From assembly GCA_024742495.1 (NCBI GenBank), contig JANSYJ010000004.1, positions 186,001-250,000 of the forward strand: a stretch of DNA of 64,000 bases. Direction: 5' to 3'. A program made the translations under genes and the position numbers. Under the pieces are notes generated by a model. That model made no database searches. It was not told where the DNA came from and saw only the letters and a list, made by a program, of their open reading frames with translations. Shown here piece by piece: positions 39,605-51,564 of the stretch (the stretch's first letter is position 1; every line of letters starts with the position of its first letter). This stretch comes from Bacteroidota bacterium (GTDB taxonomy: Bacteria > Bacteroidota > Bacteroidia > Flavobacteriales > Schleiferiaceae).

Positions 39605-39718
39605 TAAATGAGATTTATTAACGAATTTAGCTAAAAGTGAATCGCGCTGCATTTAATCTTGCTGCTTTTAGTACTTTCCAATCTTAATCAAAAACCATTT
39701 GGTATTCATTTACTTAAG

Positions 39719-41113
39719 ATGATTTTAAAACACTTTTCCCAATCCCTTAGCCTCCTTTGTTTGCTCCTTATGCCTTTTTTGTCCCTGGCCCAAAACGCCT
39801 TAGACTTTGATGGCAGCGATGATCAGGTTACTGTAGCCAATGCCTCCGCCTTAATTGCAAATAGCAGCAGTATGAGCATGGGCTTTTGGGTATACCCCAC
39901 CACCAACAGCACTGGCTGGCCAAATTTTGATGGCTATGCCGGTTTTAGGAATGATGCTAATGCCGATTTCTACATCTTACAATTAGGTAGTAATAATGTG
40001 GAAGCGCGCATCCGCAACAGCGGCGGCACCAATTACACCATTACCTATAATGGCGGTTTAAACCTAAATGCCTGGAATCACCTGGTGCTAAGCTATAATG
40101 GCAGCACTTTAATTCTTTACCACGATGGAGCCTTTGCCGCCTCTACTCCCGCCACTGGCACTATCAGCAGCAGCACCGAAGCTTTTAATATTGGCTTTAC
40201 CCCTTTTACGGGAAATAACTTTTACTTCGATGGCAGAATAGATGACCTCGGACTTTGGAAACGTGCTTTAAGTGCCAGCGATGTGAGTAGCCTTTACAAT
40301 GCTTGTGGACCAGATTTAAACGATAGCACCCTGGTTTTGAGTTATGATTTTAATCAAGGTACTGCAAGTGGGAACAACAGCGCTATTAGCAGCTTAAGCG
40401 ATGGGACCGGTAATATCAATGGCACCCTCAGTAATTTCGCTTTAAGCGGATCGAGCTCCAATTTTGTGAGCTCGCCCTTGCAGGGAATTTTAAATTTAAC
40501 TCTCAATATTAATTCCTGCGGTCCTTATTTGGCCCCGAACGGACAAAGCTATTCCACTAGTGGTTTTTACACCGACACCATTCGTCCGCAAGCGGGCTGC
40601 GATACCATTATGGACCTCAACCTTACGGTGACGAACTTAGATTCCTCAGCCAGTAGAATTGCTGCTAATCAGCTGGAAGCTAATGAAAGTGATACCGCCG
40701 CACAATTCCAATGGCTTAATTGTGCCAATAACTATGCGAAGATTAATGGGGCGGTTGGCAAGCAATTCACCTTTGTGCAAAATGGGACTTATGCGGTAGA
40801 AGTTCGATTAAATAATTGCATTGACACTTCTGCTTGTATGGTCATCAGCAATGTGGGCCTCACGGAAAACATCAGTAGCTTTAGTCTTTATCCAAACCCT
40901 GCGCTAGGAAGTGTAAAAATTGAAGCCCAACCAGGTCAATTTGACGCTTACTTTATTCACGATTTAAGTGGTGGGATTCTACTAAGCGGCGCGCTTGAAT
41001 TAAACGGTCAGTCCCAACTGGATTTAAGCACACTAAAAGCGGGTGTGTATATTATGCAGCTAAAAGGAACAAATAGCTTAGCCAGCCAAAAACTGCATAT
41101 AAAGAAGGATTAG
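39719..41113 (+). CDS. Secreted LamG-domain protein with T9SS tail
   Basis: 464 residues from MILKHFSQSLSLLCLLLMPF (signal peptide to SLAQ); an upstream in-frame TTG at 39659 is not favoured. Residues ~25-210 are a laminin-G/concanavalin-like domain: LDFDGSDDQVTVANAS, MSMGFWVYPTTN, LNAWNHLVLSYNGSTLILYH, DGRIDDLGLWKRALSASDVS. A middle Ser/Asn-rich region with Cys pairs follows, and residues ~385-464 are a T9SS type A sorting domain (FSLYPNPALGSVKIE, GVYIMQLKG). Likely a carbohydrate- or glycoprotein-binding surface protein. Stands alone between convergent neighbours. Confidence 0.87.
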   Translation: MILKHFSQSLSLLCLLLMPFLSLAQNALDFDGSDDQVTVANASALIANSSSMSMGFWVYPTTNSTGWPNFDGYAGFRNDANADFYILQLGSNNVEARIRNSGGTNYTITYNGGLNLNAWNHLVLSYNGSTLILYHDGAFAASTPATGTISSSTEAFNIGFTPFTGNNFYFDGRIDDLGLWKRALSASDVSSLYNACGPDLNDSTLVLSYDFNQGTASGNNSAISSLSDGTGNINGTLSNFALSGSSSNFVSSPLQGILNLTLNINSCGPYLAPNGQSYSTSGFYTDTIRPQAGCDTIMDLNLTVTNLDSSASRIAANQLEANESDTAAQFQWLNCANNYAKINGAVGKQFTFVQNGTYAVEVRLNNCIDTSACMVISNVGLTENISSFSLYPNPALGSVKIEAQPGQFDAYFIHDLSGGILLSGALELNGQSQLDLSTLKAGVYIMQLKGTNSLASQKLHIKKD

Positions 41114-41873: not shown

Positions 41874-43370
41874 CTAATCCAGCATTGCCCGCAACTTAGC
41901 ATAGTCGATTTTTGAATTATGCCTCGGGTCGCGCGGTAATTTCCCTAGCGATTTAAACCGATCATAATCTAGGTCTTTTAAAGCCGCTTGGAGCTGAGCC
42001 TCCCTTAATTTCGTTTCAAGTAGGAGCACCTTCTGCTGCTGATGCCAAAGTAAAGTTCCCCTAGCTATTCCGGGAATTTGCTGGAGCTGATATTCAATCA
42101 GAAAAGTAGATATATAGGATTTGTCCAAAGGGATTAACTCCTTACAAGGACCGGTCAGGTAAAGTCTACTATTTACTACGCGACCACTATCCCCCGTGCG
42201 ATGCCAAAGTTTAGTATTGGTCTTTATTTTATTTCGCTTATAGGCCGCCTCATTTTGGAAATATGACTTTAAAACATGATCGCCCGCCACAATGATTTCC
42301 CCAATTTCCCCTTCCGCAACTTCCAATTGCTCTAATTCATTTTCACTCGCCACGGAAATAGCTTCCCCACTGATATCAATAATTCGCAATTCCGTTTTTG
42401 AAAAAGGCTGACCAACCGGTAAACCATGCGGCAAGTTGGCCGGGCTTTGGGCTAATTCGCTTGCGCTGATGGAGCTAATTGGTTCCGCTTCGGTGGAGCC
42501 ATATACAATATTGATTGCCGCATTGGGAAAGGCCTTTTGGTAGAGCTGCGCTTCGCTAGGAAAAACAGGGGCGCCACCGGTAAACACTTTCTTTACAGAC
42601 TTATAGTTGTGCCTAGACCTAAGGGCAGAGTCTGCCAATCGTTTGATAAAAAAAGGCGAGGCGGTAATTCGATTGACCTCATGCCTTTCAATTTGGGCTT
42701 GAATAACCTGCCCATTTAGCTGCTCCACCTTTTTCGCATTAAACTTAGCGATGACCGAGGTGCAGCCCATCCCCAAATTCATAAAAAGCACTATCGGTAA
42801 AACGGGCATATCTACGTCTTCCACTTTGGGGTCAATTTCCAATTTAAGCGCATCAAACTGATGTTGTAAAAAAGCATGACTGCGATCGGCCGCCTTGGGT
42901 GTTCCGCTGCTACCAGTTGTAAAGGTTATAAGCGCTGAGGCCTCTTCATCAAGGTCCTGCATTGGGGCGGAAGTTTTCAACTTTCCTTTTAAAGCGAGCT
43001 TTAAGGGTATCCGGCGTATATCCTTTAAAAACCAACCAAAAATTCGCGCTTTGGGAACGCCAATAAAAGCCTTACAATCGGCCAGTCGACAGCAAACTTT
43101 AAGTCGTTCAACACTAACCCACTCATCTAAAAAAACCGCTGTAGCGCCAGAATAAAAAAGGGCCAATACAATTCTATAAAGGTCTATGCTCATTGGCACA
43201 AAAACCAAAACTCGATCGCCCGCCTTTAATCCTTTAGCTTGAAAATAAGCGGCTGTTTGCTGAACCTCAGCCTCTAATTGGGCGTAGCTTATTTCCGCAT
43301 TGTCGCTAATAATCGCGGGTTTATCAGGGTAGCTTTTAGCGGCGGTTAGAAATAATTCGGTGATATTCAT
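41874..43370 (-). CDS. AMP-forming acyl ligase (OleC-like)
   Basis: 498 residues of the ANL superfamily. A3 phosphate loop ALITFTTGSSGTPKAADRS near 150, A5 VYGSTEAEPIS near 290, A7 WHRTGDSG near 390 and the C-terminal catalytic Lys in RHNSKIDYAKL. The R-H-N-(S/A)-K-I ending and the YG-TEA-P wording resemble OleC, the ligase-like enzyme that forms beta-lactones, and related fatty-acyl ligases; but OleA/B/D are not nearby. Substrate most likely an acyl or 3-hydroxyacyl chain (inference). It is the last gene of the seven-gene operon and overlaps the upstream GNAT-like gene by 4 nt. Confidence 0.85.
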   Translation of the reverse strand: MNITELFLTAAKSYPDKPAIISDNAEISYAQLEAEVQQTAAYFQAKGLKAGDRVLVFVPMSIDLYRIVLALFYSGATAVFLDEWVSVERLKVCCRLADCKAFIGVPKARIFGWFLKDIRRIPLKLALKGKLKTSAPMQDLDEEASALITFTTGSSGTPKAADRSHAFLQHQFDALKLEIDPKVEDVDMPVLPIVLFMNLGMGCTSVIAKFNAKKVEQLNGQVIQAQIERHEVNRITASPFFIKRLADSALRSRHNYKSVKKVFTGGAPVFPSEAQLYQKAFPNAAINIVYGSTEAEPISSISASELAQSPANLPHGLPVGQPFSKTELRIIDISGEAISVASENELEQLEVAEGEIGEIIVAGDHVLKSYFQNEAAYKRNKIKTNTKLWHRTGDSGRVVNSRLYLTGPCKELIPLDKSYISTFLIEYQLQQIPGIARGTLLWHQQQKVLLLETKLREAQLQAALKDLDYDRFKSLGKLPRDPRHNSKIDYAKLRAMLD

Positions 43371-44380
43371 AAGGGCAGGCCATATAGCTGATAAGCCTTA
43401 TAAGCTTTACCATTGGTTTTCTTGGAGATTTGTCGCGAAGCATTCTCTTCAATCATTAAGGCATGGATTACCTTTTGATAAGATTGATTTTTCGCTTCCA
43501 TCATCAGCTTTAAAGCTAGGTATCTTCCTACACCCTTAAAGGGCGTATTCCTTTTGCGCGCCATGGATTTAATGATTAAGCTTTCTCCCTTGGGATCGAA
43601 ATAATCCTTTAGCCCAAAAATAAAAGCCTGAAGCGCTCCCGACTGATCCTCCGCCAGGTAAACTAAGGAAGGATCTAAAAAATCCTTTAGCCTGGAATAG
43701 CGTTTCACAAAATCCTCGACGCTAATGGGCGTGTATAAAAAATTCCCTGCAAAACCATCTAAACTTAATCGGGCAATAGCCTCCAAATCCTGTTCAAAGC
43801 GCTGTGGGTTCATAGGCCTAAATCGCGCACCTAGGCCTTCGAACCTTAGTTTTAGATTTTGAAGCCGAGTTTCGGAGCTCGGGATATCTTGAACCAAACT
43901 AGAGAAATAGGAAGCCACAACTTTAAATCCTGCCGCTTGAAACTGTTGGTTATAATACAGGTGATGATAAGGCTCCATGAAAAAATTCGGCGCATCATTG
44001 TTGAGGCTAAAGCGATACGAATTCCAGGTAGAGCCTTCCATTGGACCAATTAAGAAGCGGTAGTTTTTAGCGCGTGCTAGGGCAATGGCCCGTCCTAAAA
44101 GCTCGCTACTCACTTCCTCTTCATCAATACATTCATAGCTACCGATACAAGCGGCAGACTGAGCTTCATAAAAGAGATCGGGGTTCTCGTAAAAGGCAAA
44201 TCGACCCACTGGAATCGTATCTTTCAAAAGTACATAGCAAGCCTCTAAAAATTCTGCTTGTGGCTCATGGCCGGCCTTAAAGCGATCACTGCTTTTAGGA
44301 TAAAGGCGGATTGGCAAATCAGCAAACAAATGATAGTTTGAATCTCCAGGCTGCATGCGAATTAAGCTCCAAGTCTCCAT
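43367..44380 (-). CDS. GNAT-like N-acyltransferase domain protein
   Basis: 337 residues. The N-terminal half resembles the YghO-like GNAT group: EACYVLLKDTIPVGRFAFYE, RAKNYRFLIGPMEGSTWNSY, FFMEPYHHLYYNQQFQAAGF (the GPM...PYH..YY..F..AGF pattern). The second half carries a second GNAT-like core (LVYLAEDQSGALQAFIFGLK, SMARKRNTPFKGVGRYLALK, HALMIEENASRQISKK). It may transfer an acyl or aminoacyl group to an amine or hydroxyl. Between a polyprenol-kinase-like gene and an acyl ligase, a role in acylating the operon's product is plausible but unproven. Confidence 0.65.
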   Translation of the reverse strand: METWSLIRMQPGDSNYHLFADLPIRLYPKSSDRFKAGHEPQAEFLEACYVLLKDTIPVGRFAFYENPDLFYEAQSAACIGSYECIDEEEVSSELLGRAIALARAKNYRFLIGPMEGSTWNSYRFSLNNDAPNFFMEPYHHLYYNQQFQAAGFKVVASYFSSLVQDIPSSETRLQNLKLRFEGLGARFRPMNPQRFEQDLEAIARLSLDGFAGNFLYTPISVEDFVKRYSRLKDFLDPSLVYLAEDQSGALQAFIFGLKDYFDPKGESLIIKSMARKRNTPFKGVGRYLALKLMMEAKNQSYQKVIHALMIEENASRQISKKTNGKAYKAYQLYGLPL

Positions 44381-44381
44381 C

Positions 44382-45053
44382 TTAAAACATTAAATGGTGG
44401 ACTACTAAAACCAGGGTGGCGGTAGCGGGAATGGTTAAATTATCAAAACCCCTATGGCTTATCGCTTCCGCCAAAGTGCAGGCCAATGCCAGGATTGCGC
44501 CTAAAAGTAAAGCCTCTGAAATCGGTGTGTTTTCCAAGCCCATAAATAGCCCTAAACAGAGAGCCAAGGCGCTAACGAAAAAGGCCAATGAACCACTAAT
44601 GGTTTTAGACATTCCAAAAACCGTATAGCTTCCATAAGGCTTTGATTTGCCTACAAAAGCAGCAAAAGGATCGCTAATGGCGAGAATTAAAATAGGCAGG
44701 TAATAAAATACCAGGAGGCCAAAATGCGCTTGCGACAAATAGCAGGCATAAACGATAATAGGGTACAAAATACTGCCGCTGGTTTTTCGCTCCACCCCAT
44801 GTATGGAGCGCAGGTAAGGGGAAGAAATTGTTAAAATTAAGATCACAAAAAAACTGGCACATAATAGTAAAACCAACCAGTGATTAGTAATTAAAACGGG
44901 AAAGCTCAAGGCCAATATGCCGGTTATAATGTGTACATATTTCCGGCTAAACTCCGCCTTCACCTTCCAGCGATGGTAGATGAATTCCGCACTGGAAAAA
45001 AGCAGTAAATAGGCTATTGCCAGTCCTATAGTATGAAGCAAATTATCCGTCAA
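44382..45053 (-). CDS. Phytol/dolichol kinase-like (CTP-dependent) membrane protein
   Basis: 223 residues with about six TM helices. Motifs of the VTE5 / dolichol kinase / CdsA-like family: EFSRKYVHIITGILALSFP near 35, RKTSGSILYPIIVYACY, ISDPFAAFVGKSKPYGSYTV (acidic DPFA active site), GMSKTISGSLAFFVSALAL and the C-terminal EAISHRGFDNLTIPATATLV. Such enzymes phosphorylate isoprenoid alcohols with CTP, or make CDP-linked lipids. The first 11 nt overlap the upstream BtaA-like gene. In an operon with HMG-CoA reductase and UbiA a prenol or prenyl lipid substrate is likely. Confidence 0.8.
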   Translation of the reverse strand: MTDNLLHTIGLAIAYLLLFSSAEFIYHRWKVKAEFSRKYVHIITGILALSFPVLITNHWLVLLLCASFFVILILTISSPYLRSIHGVERKTSGSILYPIIVYACYLSQAHFGLLVFYYLPILILAISDPFAAFVGKSKPYGSYTVFGMSKTISGSLAFFVSALALCLGLFMGLENTPISEALLLGAILALACTLAEAISHRGFDNLTIPATATLVLVVHHLMF

Positions 45054-46131
45054 CTCTGATGCTTAGATTAAAATCTCGGTAAAAAAAACCTTTATCTCGT
45101 TCCAAGCAAATACCATATTTGGCATCGGCCATTAAAGCTTTATGCTGATGATGCATTTTACGAGGCACCATCAAATTCCAATAGGCAAATCTGGACTTTG
45201 GATCACTGTTGTTCAGTATATTCCTACTCACCTCATCAAATAAATCGAGCTCCATATATTCATAAATATTTGAAAGGTTGAATTTATTAAAGCCCTGGTA
45301 TTCTTTAAAGGCGTCTTCCGCCAATCCTTGAAAAATGATGAGACGATCCAAATTGGACTTTATAATTTGAAAGTTTTCCGCTCGGGCATAGTGCGGGAGC
45401 ATCGATCCAAAATCTCCTTTTAAAATATAGTGTAAGAAGTAATTTTCCTGGCAATAAACACTGCTCAGGTGCTTTTTAGCCTGCTCTAATATAAATGTGG
45501 AAACCGAGACTTTCACCTCATTTAAAAATTTAGGATCGCGCCCAAGGCGCCCCATGGACCAACGACTAAAGAAAATTTTAAAGGCCATTTTCCAACGCCA
45601 ATTAAACCATTGCTTTTCGCAAAACTCCTTTTGGGCGCCGGCCTCCTTCTTTACAAAAAGTGCAGAAATCCTCGCCTTGCTATGAAGCAGGGGTAGCATT
45701 CGTTTTCTAAATAATTGGAAATACTTTTCAAACTTGCCCGCATGGATAATTCCCGCCTCTATTTCGGAGCTTCTTTGCTCCCAAAACTTAAGGGCGCTTG
45801 GACTTAAACCTTCTTTTAAACGATTAAAAAGTTCCATTCTATTGGCATGCGCTTTAAAGCCAAGGAAGGCCAAAAAGTCCTGATGGTTCAAATGTTGAAA
45901 TGCCGCTTTTTTTAAGGCGACAAGGTTCAGCTGAACGGGGTTTATGTCCACCGCCACCACTAGATCAGGACTGCCACCTAAAAGTGAAAAGCTATTGTCA
46001 CCCGCCGAGGCAATGGAAAGAATTCGATCGCCTGCTTTAGGCTCCAAAGCTTCTAGCAATAGATCCGCATCCTCCCAGCAATTCGCATAACGGATGTAAT
46101 CATGGGAAACATCTTTTAGCTGTTCAGCCAT
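45043..46131 (-). CDS. DUF3419 / BtaA-like 3-amino-3-carboxypropyl transferase
   Basis: 362 residues. Matches DUF3419: YIRYANCWEDADLLLEAL, the SAM-binding GDRILSIASAGDNSFSLLGG, VVAVDINPVQLNLVALKKAA, FLAFLGF, then a helical middle and a C-terminal LHYILKGDFGSMLPHYA, FNLSNIYEYMELDLFDEVSR, YWNLMVPRK. BtaA uses SAM to move a 3-amino-3-carboxypropyl group onto diacylglycerol, giving the head group of homoserine betaine lipids. The methyltransferase BtaB is absent here, so the acceptor or final product may differ. Overlaps its upstream neighbour by 8 nt and downstream one by 11 nt. Confidence 0.88.
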   Translation of the reverse strand: MAEQLKDVSHDYIRYANCWEDADLLLEALEPKAGDRILSIASAGDNSFSLLGGSPDLVVAVDINPVQLNLVALKKAAFQHLNHQDFLAFLGFKAHANRMELFNRLKEGLSPSALKFWEQRSSEIEAGIIHAGKFEKYFQLFRKRMLPLLHSKARISALFVKKEAGAQKEFCEKQWFNWRWKMAFKIFFSRWSMGRLGRDPKFLNEVKVSVSTFILEQAKKHLSSVYCQENYFLHYILKGDFGSMLPHYARAENFQIIKSNLDRLIIFQGLAEDAFKEYQGFNKFNLSNIYEYMELDLFDEVSRNILNNSDPKSRFAYWNLMVPRKMHHQHKALMADAKYGICLERDKGFFYRDFNLSIRVDG

Positions 46132-48712
46132 TATCGATTAATTTTATTTGCCCCGTACTCCCATCCATCATTATTTGATCGCCAGTTTTTAAGGTCCGCA
46201 AAAGACCTTTAACGCTTACAATGCAGGGTATTCCCATTTCACGGGAAACGATGGCCGAATGACTGAGTAAACTGCCACGTTCTACAATAATCGCAGATGC
46301 AGTAGGAAAAAGGGTTACCCATCCGGGATCGGTGCTTGTCGTTAAAAGGATATCGCCATTAAGGGAGTCAATTTCATTGGGATCATGCACTACTCTCACC
46401 TTGCCCTGTACAATACCCGGACAGCAGCCAATGCCTTCCAAATGATCCTCGGCTCCTTCTAATTTCTCGAGGCTATAGATATACTCATCTTTAAATTCAT
46501 AGCCATAGGTGTAAAATCGCTCCTGGGGAAGAGGCTGCTGTGCAAACTGACTAAACTCCAATTTGCGTTCTGCTATCCTAGCCTTTAGTTGCTCGTTCCA
46601 TGATTCATTCTCCAATTGCTTTATCTCTTCCAACTCCAGATAAAACATATCGCGAGGCTGCTTTAAATGTCCTTCTTGAAACCACCTTTCACCAAGAGCT
46701 AAAAACATGTGCCGCACCATACCAAAGCCTCGGGTACGCTCAAAGCGCAAGTTCTCGCGATTACTTACCAGGTCTCTCGTTTTTCGAAGCACCAGCTGAA
46801 ACCACCATTTCTTAAAAGGCCTATTCCTCAGCTTATCAGCAATTTTCTTTTCGGCCGCTTCCCTTAATTCATCTTCCAATCCAGCCTTGGTAAAACGCTG
46901 GCTTATTCCCTGCTGGACATAAGATTTTATAAGCTTCACGAAAAGCTCCGGATGCTGAGCATAGGCCTTGCTTTCCAATTTCAATTCACCCACACATCGA
47001 TCGCCAAATTTGGCGATGTATGCATCAAAGTCTTCTTTTATCTCGGGGTAATGGCCTTGATCGAGCAGGGACCAAATATTCAAGGCCTCTTTTTCTAAAA
47101 ACAGTTTTTTAAGCGCCTCATTTTTGGCCACCTTCCCCGCTATAGCCATACTGCGATGTATGGGTTCTACCGAGATTATATCCTGACTGCCGCAAAGCAG
47201 ATCATTGTGAAGGTTGGGGCTATCTGGACAAAGTTTCTGGCTTTGTTTTTCCAGCATGCCAAACCATATCATGGCAAAGAAATCATTGATTAAAGGAGCC
47301 TTCCACTCCAGGAGTAAAGATTTTTCAAAAGCATTGTAATGTTCAATTATCTTCTTCGGCTTTAAGCCTGAAAAGTCTAGCTGTTGATAGCTGCTCATTA
47401 CGCGATTGAGGTGGGCCTGAAATTTCCTTCTCTTGGCAGGAAGTTGGAAATGAATAAGCAGCATTTTTAAAAGCATAAAGAGGATTCGCAAACTTGCAAG
47501 GCCCTTGCTCATCTTATACTCATCCCCTAAATCAAAACGCTCTTTAACCCCCATCATGCGCTCCATATTCTCGGCATTTAAGGTGTAGCCCGGTAACATC
47601 GCTAGCATTTTATACCAGTTTAGGAGATTGTAATACACTCGGCCACGAACCAGCCCTAAGGTGTTTTCGAAAACCGCTGCATTTCGGTTTACATCTTTCG
47701 CCCTCACTCCCATTAACTGTACAAATTGGCGATAAACCATTTCATACATCTGGCGAATAAAACTGAAGGTTAAAGGGGTCGTAATACCCGGGTAAGACTC
47801 AATAATATTGCTATTATCCCAAAGGATATAATCCCCTTTTGACTCTTGTTTTAAACTGGTGATCGGTCGGGTTTGGGTTAGGTAAAATTGTCCATTGGCA
47901 TAGGCGAACTCAATATCCTGTGGCAGGCCTAACTTTTCTTCTAATAATGCTAAGCCGGCAACAATTTCGGCAATTTGAGCAGCGTCAAGACTGGCTTTAT
48001 TTTGTTGATGGGCAGGAACTGCAATTTTATGACAGCCGCCATTTTCTAGATCTTGAACATATTGATGTTCCTTTAAGGCCAATTCACTGCTATAGCTTCC
48101 CGCAGTCCAGCGGAAAGTATCGGCATTTAGATCGCCAGAAACCAAGCCTTCGCCTAAGCCATACACGGCGGAGATAAGCTTTGTATCCCTAGCCCCATTT
48201 ATGGGATCGGCACCAAAAGCAACGCCGGCTACTTCTGAGGACACCATTTCTTGAATGATCACCGCAATACCGAAATGCAAATCCAAATTGTTGGTCTTGC
48301 GGTAATGCTGTACCCTTTCGGAGGCGGCCGATTTCCAGACGGCTTTAATCTTAGCTACCAGGTCCTGGGCTGAAACATGAAGATAGGATTCGAACTGCCC
48401 GGCGAAGGAGAATTCTTTTCCATCTTCATCCATGGCAGAAGAGCGCACGGCATAGCTTTGTTGCTCGAAATTGGAACCAAAAAAAGATTCAATTTCCTCC
48501 ATTATGATTGTAGGCACCTCTAAGGCATCAATAAGTTCCTGCTGCTGCTTATCATTTAGAGAAGCTGGCATCTGCTCCAGCATAAGTTCCTGTGGAATTA
48601 CCAGCCAGTTAGGAACCCTGAAGCCAAGCTCCTGCAGTTTAAAGAGGTTTTTGGCCTTGCCGCCGATGCCCTCCGCTGAGAGCTGATTGTCCTTTGAACT
48701 TATTAGCCTCAT
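46124..48712 (-). CDS. PEP-synthase / rifampin-phosphotransferase-like dikinase
   Basis: 862 residues starting at 48712, where ATG overlaps the UbiA stop by 4 nt (ATGA). N-terminal ATP-grasp (PPDK_N): GGKAKNLFKLQELGFRVPNW, SYAVRSSAMDEDGKEFSFAG, QEMVSSEVAGVAFGADPING, QDIEFAYANGQFYLTQTRPI. The middle (~330-740) is a helical domain beginning with the family signature NIIESYPGITTPLTFSFIRQ. The end is the swivelling PEP-utiliser domain with catalytic His818 in GSLLSHSAIVSREMGIPC. There is no pyruvate TIM barrel. Order, length and His position are those of rifampin phosphotransferase, which passes the beta-phosphate of ATP to a hydroxyl of a small molecule. Substrate here unknown; an isoprenoid or lipid alcohol would fit the operon. 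Confidence 0.85.
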   Translation of the reverse strand: MRLISSKDNQLSAEGIGGKAKNLFKLQELGFRVPNWLVIPQELMLEQMPASLNDKQQQELIDALEVPTIIMEEIESFFGSNFEQQSYAVRSSAMDEDGKEFSFAGQFESYLHVSAQDLVAKIKAVWKSAASERVQHYRKTNNLDLHFGIAVIIQEMVSSEVAGVAFGADPINGARDTKLISAVYGLGEGLVSGDLNADTFRWTAGSYSSELALKEHQYVQDLENGGCHKIAVPAHQQNKASLDAAQIAEIVAGLALLEEKLGLPQDIEFAYANGQFYLTQTRPITSLKQESKGDYILWDNSNIIESYPGITTPLTFSFIRQMYEMVYRQFVQLMGVRAKDVNRNAAVFENTLGLVRGRVYYNLLNWYKMLAMLPGYTLNAENMERMMGVKERFDLGDEYKMSKGLASLRILFMLLKMLLIHFQLPAKRRKFQAHLNRVMSSYQQLDFSGLKPKKIIEHYNAFEKSLLLEWKAPLINDFFAMIWFGMLEKQSQKLCPDSPNLHNDLLCGSQDIISVEPIHRSMAIAGKVAKNEALKKLFLEKEALNIWSLLDQGHYPEIKEDFDAYIAKFGDRCVGELKLESKAYAQHPELFVKLIKSYVQQGISQRFTKAGLEDELREAAEKKIADKLRNRPFKKWWFQLVLRKTRDLVSNRENLRFERTRGFGMVRHMFLALGERWFQEGHLKQPRDMFYLELEEIKQLENESWNEQLKARIAERKLEFSQFAQQPLPQERFYTYGYEFKDEYIYSLEKLEGAEDHLEGIGCCPGIVQGKVRVVHDPNEIDSLNGDILLTTSTDPGWVTLFPTASAIIVERGSLLSHSAIVSREMGIPCIVSVKGLLRTLKTGDQIMMDGSTGQIKLIDNG

Positions 48713-49641
48713 TGCCAAAAGGATATTAGCATTGGTATGCCGCCCAAGGCCAGGTACATTAAGGCAGTCCAAAGTGCGGAAGCGTACTCCATCCTCTTGG
48801 CGCCCTTGGCCGTCACATTAACTAAAAACTGAAATCCTGGCAAGGCACAAATAATAAAAAAGCCGCCGAAAATGATATAGGCCCAATAGCTATAATCGGC
48901 ATACCAAGCAGCGCCCATGGCCAGGAGCATGGTGATAAACATCAATACGATCCAGGCGATTACTCCGCCTTTGGTACCGTATAAACCGGTATAAGAAATT
49001 ACTCCATCTTCTTCCATTTCGGGGCTGCGTAGCTTGCGACCAAACTCCAGAACAAGGCCATTCATATAGCTTACGGCAAAAAACCAAGCCAGGCCCCAAT
49101 GGGCGGAACTTCCTTCTAATTTCCAATCCAGGCCACTGGCATAAATGTCTATTAAAGGAATAATAAACATGTGAGAAGTGATGTACAGGAGCTGCCGAGC
49201 TTTTAACCATTTAGGAACAAAAAACTCAAATCCCATCAAAACTAAATAGGCCAGCACTATTAAATAGAGGAGCAGCATTTCCCTTTGAAAAATTACAATG
49301 GTGCTTATCTGAACCAATCCCAGTAAAATGCCAATCCACTTTAATTCCTTTAAGCTAATGAGGCCTCGCGGCACTGGCAAATACTTTCGAAAACGGGCAT
49401 CATCTTCCCGATCCTTAAACTCATCAAAAATGCGAACTAAGAAAAATAGACTTACCGTCGCCAGGATGCCTATTGCAAAGTCGGACCATGGAATAAAACC
49501 CGTTTTCCCGCGGCAAATTCTGGAATAGGAAACAGCGGAAAAGGTAAAAGCAGCAATCATTAAACCGTGGGCAAAAAACGGAAAACGCTCTTTCTGATAA
49601 ATCCAAAAACGCTTTAAAAAAGGCAATTGCTTTTCGTCCAT
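48709..49641 (-). CDS. UbiA-superfamily prenyltransferase (divergent)
   Basis: 310 residues with about eight TM helices. First acidic motif RIFDEFKDREDDARFRKYL followed by PVPRGLISLKEL is the UbiA NDxxDxxxD region. The second region, normally DxxxD, reads GLVLEFGRKLRSPEMEEDGV-ISYTGLYG: Glu-Phe-Gly-Arg-Lys and Pro-Glu residues instead of Asp. This places it in a divergent branch rather than ubiquinone, menaquinone or haem O synthesis. It should attach, or cyclise, a prenyl diphosphate at the membrane. It follows the HMG-CoA reductase gene by 3 nt. Confidence 0.82.
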   Translation of the reverse strand: MDEKQLPFLKRFWIYQKERFPFFAHGLMIAAFTFSAVSYSRICRGKTGFIPWSDFAIGILATVSLFFLVRIFDEFKDREDDARFRKYLPVPRGLISLKELKWIGILLGLVQISTIVIFQREMLLLYLIVLAYLVLMGFEFFVPKWLKARQLLYITSHMFIIPLIDIYASGLDWKLEGSSAHWGLAWFFAVSYMNGLVLEFGRKLRSPEMEEDGVISYTGLYGTKGGVIAWIVLMFITMLLAMGAAWYADYSYWAYIIFGGFFIICALPGFQFLVNVTAKGAKRMEYASALWTALMYLALGGIPMLISFWQ

Positions 49642-49644
49642 GGC

Positions 49645-50922
49645 TTATGCTTTTCTACCCAAGTTTTGATGCGCTTGGGTAAAGTGATTTGCTGACATAG
49701 CGGCCGCGATAGAAATCTCCCCGCTAAGCGCCACCGCACAACAGATTTCCGCAAATTTCCGAGCGCTACCCGGGCCAGTACAGCCCAGCATATTTAAACA
49801 CTCCTTTTGGGTTGGTAAGCCCGTACCTCCGCCAACCGTGCCCACAATTAAAGAAGGCAAGGTTACCGCTACATAGAGGTCGCCACTTTCGGTTAACTGC
49901 ATACGGGTGAGCCCAATGGAAGATTCTGAAATACAGGCAACATCTTGGCCACAGGCTAAAAACAAGGCGGTTAGGCCGTTTGCCACATGTCCTTGAGCGC
50001 CAATACTTCCGCTTTGAATGGCGGCTAAGGTGGACGATTGCCAATAATTGGCGATTAATTGAGGGCTCGATTTTAGAGTGTTTTCACAAATCTCCTTGGG
50101 AATGCGGATTTCGGCACTCACCTTTTTCCCTCGCACATTGCCAAAGGATACGGCGGTTGCTTTTTTGTCGCCCGAAAAATTGCTTTCAATACACCATTCT
50201 TGAGGTTTTACCGGCGACTCTTTCATCATGTACTGGCAAATTTGGTCGGTGCAAATGGTAACCATATTCTGGCCTGCCGCCTCCCCGGTGGTATATTCAA
50301 AAGTTAATATTACCGTGTTTCCCTCTATGGTTGGGGCCATTTCTTGCAATTTGGCGTAACGACTTGTTTCGGCTACAATTTTCTCGAAAAGGGGCTGTTG
50401 GGCTTGGGTCCATTTTACAAAAAGACCTACCTCGCCAATGCTTCTAAATTTAAATAAAGGACAGCGTTGAACGCCCTCACTTAGGCAAACTGTGGTAATC
50501 CCTCCGCTCTGCCTACAGGCTTTCATACCGCGATTATAGGAAGCCACTAGGGCACCTTCGCTGCTCGCTAGGGGCACATAAAAGTCGCCAATTGCTTTGG
50601 TTCCTCTAATATTAATGGGACCTGCCAATCCAATAGGAACCTGGGCCATGCCAATGAAGTTCTCAATATTTCCTTGGTAGGCTTTCGCCTGATGAAATTC
50701 GCCTTTACCCGCTATTTTATCGGTTTCAAGTCCACGCTTGTTTAGAAAGGCCAATCGGGCTAAATACCCTTCTTCACTGGCTTCTGTATTGTACTTTTCT
50801 TGGGGCAGTTTTTTTATTTCCGATGCCGGGAGCGGCGCTATTTGTCGAGCATATTCTTCAATGGACTTTTCCTTTTCAAAATCTTTTATGAGTTTTTCAC
50901 TCTGACGGGAGTTGCGGGCCAT
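49645..50922 (-). CDS. Hydroxymethylglutaryl-CoA reductase
   Basis: 425 residues without a membrane domain. The catalytic core is clear: IENFIGMAQVPIGLAGPINI, substrate Glu122 in SSEGALVASYNRG, Lys in GDKKATAV (253/254), Asp327 in CGQDVA, the GTVGGGTGLPTQKECLNMLG strand and His418 near the end (AHQNLGRK), matching the class I catalytic Glu-Lys-Asp-His set. The NAD(P)-site motif usually read DAMGMNM is here GEAAGQNM, a noticeable deviation. Reduces HMG-CoA to mevalonate. As first gene of a seven-gene operon it may boost precursor supply for that pathway or serve the general mevalonate route. Confidence 0.93.
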   Translation of the reverse strand: MARNSRQSEKLIKDFEKEKSIEEYARQIAPLPASEIKKLPQEKYNTEASEEGYLARLAFLNKRGLETDKIAGKGEFHQAKAYQGNIENFIGMAQVPIGLAGPINIRGTKAIGDFYVPLASSEGALVASYNRGMKACRQSGGITTVCLSEGVQRCPLFKFRSIGEVGLFVKWTQAQQPLFEKIVAETSRYAKLQEMAPTIEGNTVILTFEYTTGEAAGQNMVTICTDQICQYMMKESPVKPQEWCIESNFSGDKKATAVSFGNVRGKKVSAEIRIPKEICENTLKSSPQLIANYWQSSTLAAIQSGSIGAQGHVANGLTALFLACGQDVACISESSIGLTRMQLTESGDLYVAVTLPSLIVGTVGGGTGLPTQKECLNMLGCTGPGSARKFAEICCAVALSGEISIAAAMSANHFTQAHQNLGRKA

Positions 50923-51093
50923 AGGTATTCAGGTAAAAATGAGATGGTCCAATTCTAAAAAAATTAAACCTTCTCTATTTGTTATCCGAATGTAAGCGTT
51001 TATCTCGAATCAATGGAGCTCCGCTATTTCAGCGTCAATCCGCTCAGTTTAATTCTTGCTCTAAACCTATGAAGCTGCTTAGCTTTGCTCTTT

Positions 51094-51564
51094 ATGAAAA
51101 GAAGAACGCGGTTTTATTTAAAGAGGTATTTTGTTTTTAGTCTACTGTTCTTAGCAATGGCTTGCAGTCTATTTCAAAAAGGCTGGCCATCAAAGTTCTT
51201 CATTGAGGCCAATAATTACCAAGCGGTAATAAGCGATGAGCAGTTACAGAACTATAAAGAGATAATGGATCAATCGCCGCTATACCCTAATGGTGTGCAA
51301 GGCATTTTGCAGCATATTTCTAAAAACTATCAATATCCTGCCCAAGCTAAGGCTGATGGCATTCAGGGACGAGTTTACCTAAGTTTTACCATTAATAAAG
51401 AAGGCTGGGTGGAAGCGGCCAAAGTGCAGCACTCGGACCATCCGGTTTTTAATGATGAAGCTTTGCGAGTAATCCACAGTCTAGATCGTTGGATACCCGC
51501 AAAGCTGCAAGGGAAATTTGTGGCCGTGCCCTACACGGTTCCGATCAAATTGAAATTGGAATAA
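51094..51564 (+). CDS. TonB C-terminal domain lipoprotein
   Basis: 156 residues from the ATG at 51094 (an in-frame TTG lies 9 nt upstream). MKRRTRFYLKRYFVFSLLFLAMAC is a long basic lipoprotein signal with Cys24. Residues ~75-155 form a TonB_C domain: YPAQAKADGIQGRVYLSFTI, NKEGWVEAAKVQHSDHPVFN, DEALRVIHSLDRWIPAKLQG, VPYTVPIKLKL. Instead of a Pro-rich spanning region and a TM anchor it is lipid-anchored, so it is probably not an energy transducer for TonB receptors but one of the stand-alone TonB_C proteins common in Bacteroidota. The 170 nt upstream hold no other gene. Confidence 0.82.
   Translation: MKRRTRFYLKRYFVFSLLFLAMACSLFQKGWPSKFFIEANNYQAVISDEQLQNYKEIMDQSPLYPNGVQGILQHISKNYQYPAQAKADGIQGRVYLSFTINKEGWVEAAKVQHSDHPVFNDEALRVIHSLDRWIPAKLQGKFVAVPYTVPIKLKLE

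Follow-up and report, generated by a model that had tools for sequence, protein, structure and literature searches.

The seven genes described here form one conserved unit, an operon whose product is probably a membrane lipid not yet described and which seems to use mevalonate as a building block. They lie in a stretch of 64,000 nucleotides from a Schleiferiaceae genome (Bacteroidota), referred to as a whole as the window, and span positions 41874-50922 on its minus strand. The sequence-only reading of this DNA had placed seven minus-strand genes there with spacings of +3, -4, -8, -11, +1 and -4 nt; its coordinates are exact to the base, every open reading frame is open and complete at its position, and recomputation returns identical spacings. 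The genes, from g1 to g7, are:

49645-50922, minus strand: g1, HMG-CoA reductase (HMGR) of the NADPH/class I type, 425 aa (PF00368)
48709-49641, minus strand: g2, UbiA-family membrane prenyltransferase, 310 aa (PF01040)
46124-48712, minus strand: g3, dikinase of the rifampin-phosphotransferase/PigC type, 862 aa (PF01326 and PF00391)
45043-46131, minus strand: g4, DUF3419/BtaA-like SAM-dependent 3-amino-3-carboxypropyl transferase, 362 aa (PF11899)
44382-45053, minus strand: g5, membrane protein of the CTP-transferase superfamily, proposed CTP-dependent alcohol kinase, 223 aa (predicted fold)
43367-44380, minus strand: g6, tandem GNAT N-acyltransferase, 337 aa (predicted-structure matches)
41874-43370, minus strand: g7, adenylate-forming ligase, nearest to the PRK09274 and olefin beta-lactone synthetase models, 498 aa (PF00501)

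The start of g3 is taken as the ATG at 48712, the mechanical open reading frame beginning upstream at 48772, and the start codon of g5 is TTG.

Conservation of the set was assessed in 80 loci, the best g4 matches of 552, of which 56 have enough flanking DNA for all seven genes. All seven are present in 48 of these 56, and gene order and strand are identical in every one of the 48 complete loci; because the 80 loci are the best g4 matches, looser relatives may be less regular. The comparison of co-occurrence and gene order that the sequence-only reading had proposed thus finds conserved linkage, not the scattered homologues that it had set against its own idea. The seven genes also occur together outside the Bacteroidota, on an alphaproteobacterial plasmid (Roseinatronobacter), and the distribution of the operon is patchy inside the window's own genus and family, like that of a transferable accessory pathway. 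A literature search on the gene set and on its components turned up no pathway of this kind, in agreement with the earlier statement that none was known.

The family assignments made earlier hold for five of the genes, whose Pfam matches (PF00368, PF01040, PF01326 with PF00391, PF11899 and PF00501) exceed the cut-offs, whereas g5 and g6 have no passing Pfam match. The g1 protein matches PF00368 (E 3.8e-114) and is much closer to TIGR00533 (E 1.5e-97) than to TIGR00532 (E 2.3e-9), both scores lying under the models' cut-offs. E122, K253, D327 and H418, which we take to be the catalytic Glu, Lys, Asp and His of HMG-CoA reductase, are invariant across 15 operon HMGRs. The g2 protein (PF01040, E 5.5e-12) has an Asp-rich RxxDExKDxxxD motif that is invariant in 20 sequences, and its profile matches chlorophyll synthase (E 5e-5) and the DGGGP synthase 6m31 (E 1e-4) about equally. 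Pfam identifies an ATP-binding (PF01326) and a phosphohistidine (PF00391) domain in g3 and finds no PEP-binding barrel domain; His818 is invariant in 16 sequences. The best PDB profile match of g3 is 5hv2, a record labelled PEP synthase that is presumably rifampin phosphotransferase. These features relate g3 to the rifampin phosphotransferase/PigC-type dikinases, from which it differs in falling under the curated cut-offs (303.6 bits against 999 for the rifamycin phosphotransferase model NF041857, and likewise below for the PigC model) and in its linkage to UbiA. It adjoins g2 in the seven-gene loci and in the variants L039, L071 and L201, although in L200 the dikinase is present and a UbiA match is absent.

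The g4 protein matches PF11899 strongly (E 1.2e-61, 209.5 bits against a cut-off of 28.2) and conserves a motif, SIASAGDN...AVDxNP, in 14 sequences, which we assume to be SAM-related. The earlier label of g5 as phytol/dolichol-kinase-like draws its support from fold: PF01148 (CTP_transf_1) gives no match at E 0.01, and the AlphaFold2 model (pLDDT 94.7) has TmCdsA as its top three PDB matches, with probabilities of 0.82-0.98 and weak E values of 0.05-0.34. The proposal that g5 may be a CTP-dependent alcohol kinase draws on this predicted fold, on the HMGR-APH fusions common in hosts that lack g5 (below) and on the DAG kinase that stands in its place in L039. The GNAT-like label of g6 likewise stands on its model (pLDDT 94.7), no sequence match rising above any cut-off. 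Its Foldseek matches are GNAT structures (E 6.6e-15 to 1e-12, TM-scores of about 0.4-0.6), a good number of which are tandem enzymes, and many tandem structures align over more than 300 columns with E near 1e-13, as expected of two GNAT domains. In L148, g4 and g6 are fused into one protein, a hint that the substrate of the GNAT is what g4 makes. The g7 protein (PF00501, E 7.1e-46) lies below the curated cut-offs (NF006754, 346.5 bits against 478; OleC models, 192.5 against 850 and 178.3 against 900), and its ligase motifs and C-terminal Lys487 are invariant in 20 sequences.

The reading that we favour, at somewhat less than even confidence, is that the operon encodes an accessory pathway, spread by horizontal transfer, for a membrane lipid with mevalonate itself as a building block, beyond its role as a source of isopentenyl diphosphate. 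We infer every chemical step of this pathway, the order of the steps and the product, which would be a prenyl-homoserine-acyl compound. The g1 enzyme would make mevalonate, and a mevalonate-derived alcohol would be phosphorylated by g5 or, in other lineages, by the APH kinase part of a fused reductase. The g2-g3 pair would add a prenyl chain and activate or phosphorylate the acceptor to give a prenyl-lipid core, to which g4 would add a 3-amino-3-carboxypropyl (homoserine) group from SAM. A carboxylic acid activated by g7 could then be moved by g6 onto the new amino group, and a phospho-headgroup may be supplied in a subset of hosts by CdsA/CarS together with a CDP-alcohol phosphotransferase.

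The exchange of g5 with HMGR-APH fusions bears on the second of these steps. The g5 gene is missing from 7 of the 80 best g4 matches, and the hosts of five of these seven loci (L100, L101, L117, L127 and L148) carry an HMGR fused to an APH-type kinase; the same five are all of the g5-less loci that keep at least the dikinase. No fused HMGR occurs in the 26 g5-bearing hosts that have an HMGR. The association gives a Fisher p of 3.6e-5 on the first four loci, uncorrected for kinship, L127 and then L100 having been added to the comparison after the pattern was noticed. The lone-g4 loci L090 and L128, one of which ends at a contig edge, have neither g5 nor a visible fused HMGR, and an operon-type HMGR was not seen in the hosts of the g5-bearing loci L106, L123 and L129. 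A minimal cluster in genome G309 consists of a CDP-alcohol phosphotransferase (CDP-OH-PT), CdsA, HMGR and g5. The HMGR and the kinase look like parts that behave as one unit.

Mevalonate is normally an isoprenoid precursor, and textbooks present HMG-CoA reductase as the step that commits a cell to isoprenoid synthesis. On one reading of the operon, HMGR raises the flow of mevalonate towards the prenyl diphosphates that UbiA uses, and the remaining genes attach homoserine and an acyl group to a prenyl lipid that does not contain mevalonate as such. This reading, close to the earlier one, in which HMGR was the start of prenyl supply, is unlikely in our estimation. Dxr, a marker of the MEP route, is found in 12 of the 20 operon genomes examined, and 11 of these 12 (the exception being G356) lack a credible mevalonate-diphosphate decarboxylase (MvaD), as judged by one model with weak partial matches (E 1e-6 to 4e-4) in 4 of the 11; the usual bacterial route from mevalonate to isopentenyl diphosphate would therefore be closed in these hosts, which nevertheless retain HMGR with the operon. 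Ten of the 11 have no HMGR other than that of the operon; G355 has a second. Against our favoured reading, AcnX, which marks the archaeal mevalonate route, exceeds its cut-off in one of 11 Dxr hosts tested (G278). On the same side, HMG-CoA synthase (PF08540) is matched in three of 19 genomes, all without the operon, and mevalonate kinase has no match above cut-off in any of 19.

The remaining 8 of the 20 hosts, the window genome included, have no Dxr and do have an MvaD-like gene (E 1e-46 or better, as in G356; above the curated cut-off in just 2 of the 8), and supplying isoprenoids is therefore still a plausible role in these genomes. All eight have a second HMGR as well; in the hosts compared, the operon HMGRs form a clade of their own, very far from these second copies. 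The operon enzyme resembles the isoprenoid mevalonate pathway in its catalytic residues and in the APH-family kinase fusions, which could be a plain reductase joined to a mevalonate kinase, and four loci (L074, L085, L086 and L141) have a polyprenyl synthase gene close to g7 or immediately behind it. Prenyl supply may thus hold in the eight Dxr-less hosts, and it meets the missing decarboxylase in the Dxr hosts; isoprenoid supply alone is an insufficient explanation for HMGR in the operon.

A betaine-type homoserine aminolipid on an ordinary diacylglycerol or ether core, with g4 adding homoserine, g6 and g7 N-acylating it and HMGR and UbiA in a side role, is still less likely. BtaA makes diacylglycerol-O-homoserine from SAM (PMC10685587), and g4 belongs to the same DUF3419/BtaA family. 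The variant L039 has a DAG kinase in place of g5, together with fatty acyl-CoA reductase-like and PS decarboxylase genes, and g1, g5 and g7 are absent from its 20-kb stretch; L040 has a DUF3419 protein fused to a PEMT domain. However, HMGR is present in 54 of 61 and UbiA in 66 of 68 loci with room for them (again among the best 80 of 552 g4 matches), and both are therefore too constant for a side role. Pfam finds no methyltransferase for the part of BtaB among the seven window proteins, which include instead a tandem GNAT and a ligase, in contrast to the distant DUF3419 genes L042 and L044, each directly followed by a methyltransferase. Distant DUF3419 genes of other genomes share about 20-29% identity with g4 (34% over one short piece).

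The lipid reading made earlier is strengthened by the neighbouring genes. In 92 loci, 16 recurring neighbour families were recognized, mostly by eye; accessory genes near the operon include CDP-OH_P_transf, CTP_transf_1, a START-like protein and polyprenyl synthase, and CarS/CdsA and a CDP-alcohol phosphotransferase both lie near the cluster in 11 of the 92. Sister clusters carry CdsA/CarS, CDP-OH-PT, UbiA, the dikinase and FA_desaturase, with an ICMT/PEMT methyltransferase in two of three. In the window operon, Pfam finds neither CarS/CdsA nor CDP-alcohol phosphotransferase among the seven proteins, and the window genome has no close member of the CDP-OH-PT subfamily (best E 5.6e-7).

The least probable product is a secreted small molecule, for instance mevalonate joined to an amino acid in the manner of the acyl portion of fusarinine siderophores in fungi. 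In its favour, g7 and g6 are of the same broad enzyme kinds as fungal SidI and SidF. Against it, membrane or lipid proteins make up much of the set and its surroundings (UbiA, g5 and the recurring neighbours CdsA/CarS, CDP-OH-PT and the START-like protein), and transport is hinted at among the 16 neighbour families by an ABC ATPase alone (7 of 92 loci). In fungi the mevalonyl-CoA ligase SidI activates mevalonate and the anhydromevalonyl transferase SidF transfers it to an amine (PMC3709128), a functional analogy only to the ligase-transferase pair of the bacterial operon, in which no hydratase (SidH) was identified.

The archaeal-type ether phospholipid pathway of FCB bacteria (GGGPS, DGGGPS/UbiA and CarS) is another of the nearest known systems. 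Ca. Cloacimonetes carry genes for GGGP and DGGGP synthases but none for CarS (PMC7852524). The operon shares UbiA with this pathway, and the sister and some operon clusters share CarS or CdsA with a CDP-alcohol phosphotransferase, but by Pfam the window's operon genes include neither GGGP synthase nor glycerol-1-phosphate dehydrogenase and have HMGR and a kinase instead. A bolder version of our favoured reading, which we regard as doubtful, is a new class of mevalonate-built bacterial membrane lipid, in which phosphomevalonate from HMGR and its dedicated kinase would replace archaeal glycerol-1-phosphate, UbiA and the dikinase would prenylate it, and the cap would be, by lineage, either CarS/CdsA with CDP-alcohol phosphotransferase or an N-acyl homoserine headgroup, the pathway having crossed to another phylum, in which a plasmid carries it.

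The operon is thus headed by HMGR, often in bacteria that have another isoprenoid route and in which the later mevalonate steps are not apparent. The several cluster types amount to natural gene swaps that split the pathway into modules. If mevalonate is indeed a structural unit of the lipid, these Bacteroidota would contain a lipid class that has apparently never been looked for in them.

The reading of six-frame ORFs in the window bears out the seven-gene minus-strand operon at 41874-50922 that was proposed from the sequence alone, with computed spacings of +3, -4, -8, -11, +1 and -4 nt. Among the seven operon proteins scanned, passing Pfam matches were HMG-CoA reductase (HMGR, g1), UbiA (prenyltransferase, g2), PPDK_N with PEP-utilizers (dikinase, g3), DUF3419 (BtaA-like, g4) and AMP-binding (ligase, g7); g5 (223 aa) and g6 (337 aa) are without a passing match. 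The AlphaFold2 models of these two proteins are confident (pLDDT 94.7 for both). The structures matched by that of g6 are GNAT enzymes, often tandem ones, in agreement with its GNAT-like call. Because the only plausible PDB relative of the g5 model is TmCdsA, at E 0.05-0.34 and probability 0.82-0.98, the name putative CTP-dependent alcohol kinase is an educated guess from the model. The nearest HMM models to g7 are PRK09274 and beta-lactone synthetases, under whose cut-offs it scores. The operon HMGR looks active, since its catalytic residues, whose roles we take to be those of the family, are invariant across 15 sequences. Upstream of the operon, the opposite strand encodes a TonB_C-domain protein (51085-51564), and a large plus-strand ORF downstream (39659-41113) has the appearance of a secreted protein.

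The g4 alignment, used as query against the named genomes, gave 552 related stretches, and profiles of the seven proteins were compared with six frames of the best 80 of them (fetched loci carry L-numbers and compared genomes G-numbers), a choice by which rarer arrangements may be missed. Linkage is conserved: all seven genes occur in 48 of the 56 loci with room on both sides among these best 80, and order and strand are identical in 48 of 48 complete loci. Where there was room, presence in the same best 80 of 552 was 54/61 for HMGR (the fused HMGR of L148 being scored as HMGR), 66/68 for UbiA, 75/77 for the dikinase, 73/80 for g5, 73/75 for the GNAT and 69/71 for the ligase. The hosts in this set include Sphingobacterium, Dyadobacter, Portibacter, Rhabdobacter, Fluviicola and many Saprospiraceae. 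One group (L035-L038) has the alternative order GNAT-ligase-HMGR-UbiA-dikinase-g4-g5, and its g5 has an extra membrane domain. An extra C-terminal stretch of ~200-240 aa is seen in the g5 proteins at L034:8428-9810, L035:7802-9172 and L205:4932-6251; Pfam gave no match for the first two. At L090, L100 and L128 an operon-type g4 stands with few or zero partner genes nearby; these are possible decaying or split clusters. The distant DUF3419 genes of L042-L045 were set aside as operon relatives, the profiles of the other six operon proteins having no match nearby. A SAM methyltransferase gene lies directly 3' of the DUF3419 gene in L042 (9232-10985) and L044 (9552-11345), which resemble ordinary BtaA-BtaB pairs, here in Bacteroidota, and in L045 a GNAT protein follows.

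A g4 homologue is present in 37 of 296 genomes drawn from the phylum, and in ten of the 37, the window genome included, the match has E ≤ 1e-56. Close g3 (E ≤ 1e-215) occurs in five of 58 relatives of the window genome, and two of these carriers are among the six other species of its genus. In the HMGR tree of 26 chosen operon sequences, the operon HMGR of G323, a genome of the window's family, groups with the enzymes of Sphingobacterium and Dyadobacter (100/99) and not with that of the window operon (99/94). All seven genes are also borne by a plasmid of the alphaproteobacterium Roseinatronobacter sp. S2, where the HMGR crosses the record start and was read in two parts (L206 and L205). The genes flanking the operon are mostly different in different hosts. 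At 44.1% GC for the operon and 42.9% for the window, base composition is uninformative about whether the operon arrived recently.

Plain isoprenoid supply as the sole role of the HMGR is weakened by hosts bearing Dxr, a marker of the MEP pathway, which is found in 12 of 20 operon-bearing genomes. A convincing mevalonate-diphosphate decarboxylase (MvaD) is present in one of these 12 (G356); the search gave weak partial matches in four of the other 11 and none in seven. Ten of these 11 hosts have no HMGR besides that of the operon (G355 has a second), and there is no evident route from its product to isopentenyl diphosphate in the 11. The eight hosts without Dxr all have a second HMGR and an MvaD-like gene (E ≤ 1e-46), which exceeds the curated cut-off in two of them; in the tree, about ten changes per site separate the operon HMGR from those second HMGRs that were compared. 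Searches for HMG-CoA synthase (PF08540) and mevalonate kinase (TIGR00549) are undiscriminating, because the operon-bearing mevalonate hosts also gave zero matches over cut-off. The archaeal AcnX route was rejected as a general answer, with AcnX over cut-off in one of the 11 Dxr hosts (G278) and short weak matches only in six others; G278 may have an archaeal-like route from mevalonate, since its AcnX exceeds the cut-off. A third kind of HMGR (~515-523 aa, with an N-terminal extension of 120-140 aa) is seen in some hosts, standing alone within the fetched stretches (L203:8373-9929, L187:6512-8065, L207-L210).

HMGR also occurs fused to an APH-family kinase (HMGR-APH), and no description of this fusion was found in the literature on the operon gene set and its parts:

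HMGR-APH fusions in the fetched loci
L152:9889-12318, HMGR-APH fusion, operon-less species of the window's genus
L153:7151-9580, HMGR-APH fusion, second operon-less species of that genus
L200:7928-10225, HMGR-APH fusion
L201:7234-9390, HMGR-APH fusion
L148:3291-5600, HMGR-APH fusion
L213:8-2380, HMGR-APH fusion
L215:2425-4119, HMGR-APH fusion

Several adjoin CarS-like and CDP-alcohol phosphotransferase genes, and in L152 and L153 the fusion is followed by both. Within the best 80 of 552 loci, g5 is missing from seven. Four of these (L101, L117, L127 and L148) keep g2, g3, g4 and g6, and HMGR-APH is found in 4/4 of their hosts; the host of L127 was examined once the first three were known, to test the pattern. 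Fused HMGR is found in 0/26 g5-bearing hosts with HMGR, whose HMGR ORFs are of 372-540 aa; G359, which carries L106, gave no HMGR match and was left out. For 4/4 against 0/26, Fisher's exact test gives p = 3.6e-5 without correction for kinship; in the HMGR tree, two of the fusions group as sisters. The fifth g5-less locus, L100, which has a dikinase piece and g4, did not enter the test and was found afterwards to fit: in its host, part of an HMGR-APH gene lies at a contig end, next to CarS and CDP-alcohol phosphotransferase. The remaining two, L090 and L128, have g4 alone, and no fusion was seen in their hosts, the operon-type HMGR being unfused in one and cut by the contig end in the other. 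As exceptions to the pattern, no operon-type HMGR was seen in the hosts of the g5-bearing loci L106, L123 and L129, whose genomes may be incomplete. Because HMGR-APH occurs in the hosts of five of the seven g5-less loci and in none of the 26 g5-bearing hosts, we read HMGR and g5 as one functional unit with an exchangeable kinase. A minimal cluster in G309 (L184) consists of CDP-alcohol phosphotransferase, CdsA, HMGR and g5.

Because of their gene content, sister and variant clusters point to a membrane lipid product. The second locus of G298 (L071) has CarS, UbiA, dikinase and CDP-alcohol phosphotransferase; in L201 (G366), HMGR-APH, CarS, CDP-alcohol phosphotransferase and UbiA stand with a dikinase that was read as two ORFs; in L200 (G365), HMGR-APH and CarS stand with a dikinase, and the stretch gave no UbiA match. 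Each of the three loci has FA_desaturase nearby; ICMT/PEMT lies close to L071 and L201, and an acyltransferase and a methyltransferase lie close to L200. The variant at L039:2238-11135 comprises fatty acyl-CoA reductase-like, DAG kinase, UbiA, dikinase, GNAT, PS decarboxylase and g4 genes, with no HMGR, g5 or g7 in the 20-kb stretch. In L148, g4 is fused to GNAT. At L040:9073-10935 a DUF3419 domain is fused behind a PEMT/ICMT-type phospholipid methyltransferase domain, with DAG kinase and GNAT adjoining; this protein may represent a new, single-protein type of betaine-lipid synthase. Neighbours were compared in 92 of 96 loci (L032, L066, L067 and L069 were omitted as duplicates of named loci): CDP-OH_P_transf is near the cluster in 13/92, CTP_transf_1 (CdsA) in 12/92 and both in 11/92, at varying positions, and a START-like gene in 18/92. 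The proposal that CdsA and a CDP-alcohol phosphotransferase of this subfamily, if not in the cluster, are always encoded elsewhere in the genome fails for the phosphotransferase in the window genome (best E 5.6e-7).

In the proposed mechanism, mevalonate made by g1 would be a structural unit of the lipid, phosphorylated through g5 or APH and prenylated with the g2-g3 pair. A homoserine group would be added by g4, and g7 with g6 would carry out N-acylation; alternatively, these two might add a mevalonyl group, by analogy with fungal SidI and SidF (PMC3709128). BtaA makes diacylglycerol-O-homoserine (PMC10685587), which by family analogy would support the g4 step. The order of the steps and the product are inferred.

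The sequence-only reading knew of no pathway with this gene set, and none was found in the literature on the set and its parts, a scope outside which most subscription papers and all preprints lie. HMGR and UbiA are reported near other lipid genes, apparently in different clusters, in PMC12419801. Archaeal-type GGGP and DGGGP synthases have been described in FCB bacteria (PMC7852524), but that pathway starts from glycerol-1-phosphate, unlike the mevalonate-based pathway proposed for the operon. We take the operon to be a lipid biosynthesis cluster, with a real chance that its product belongs to a new lipid class.
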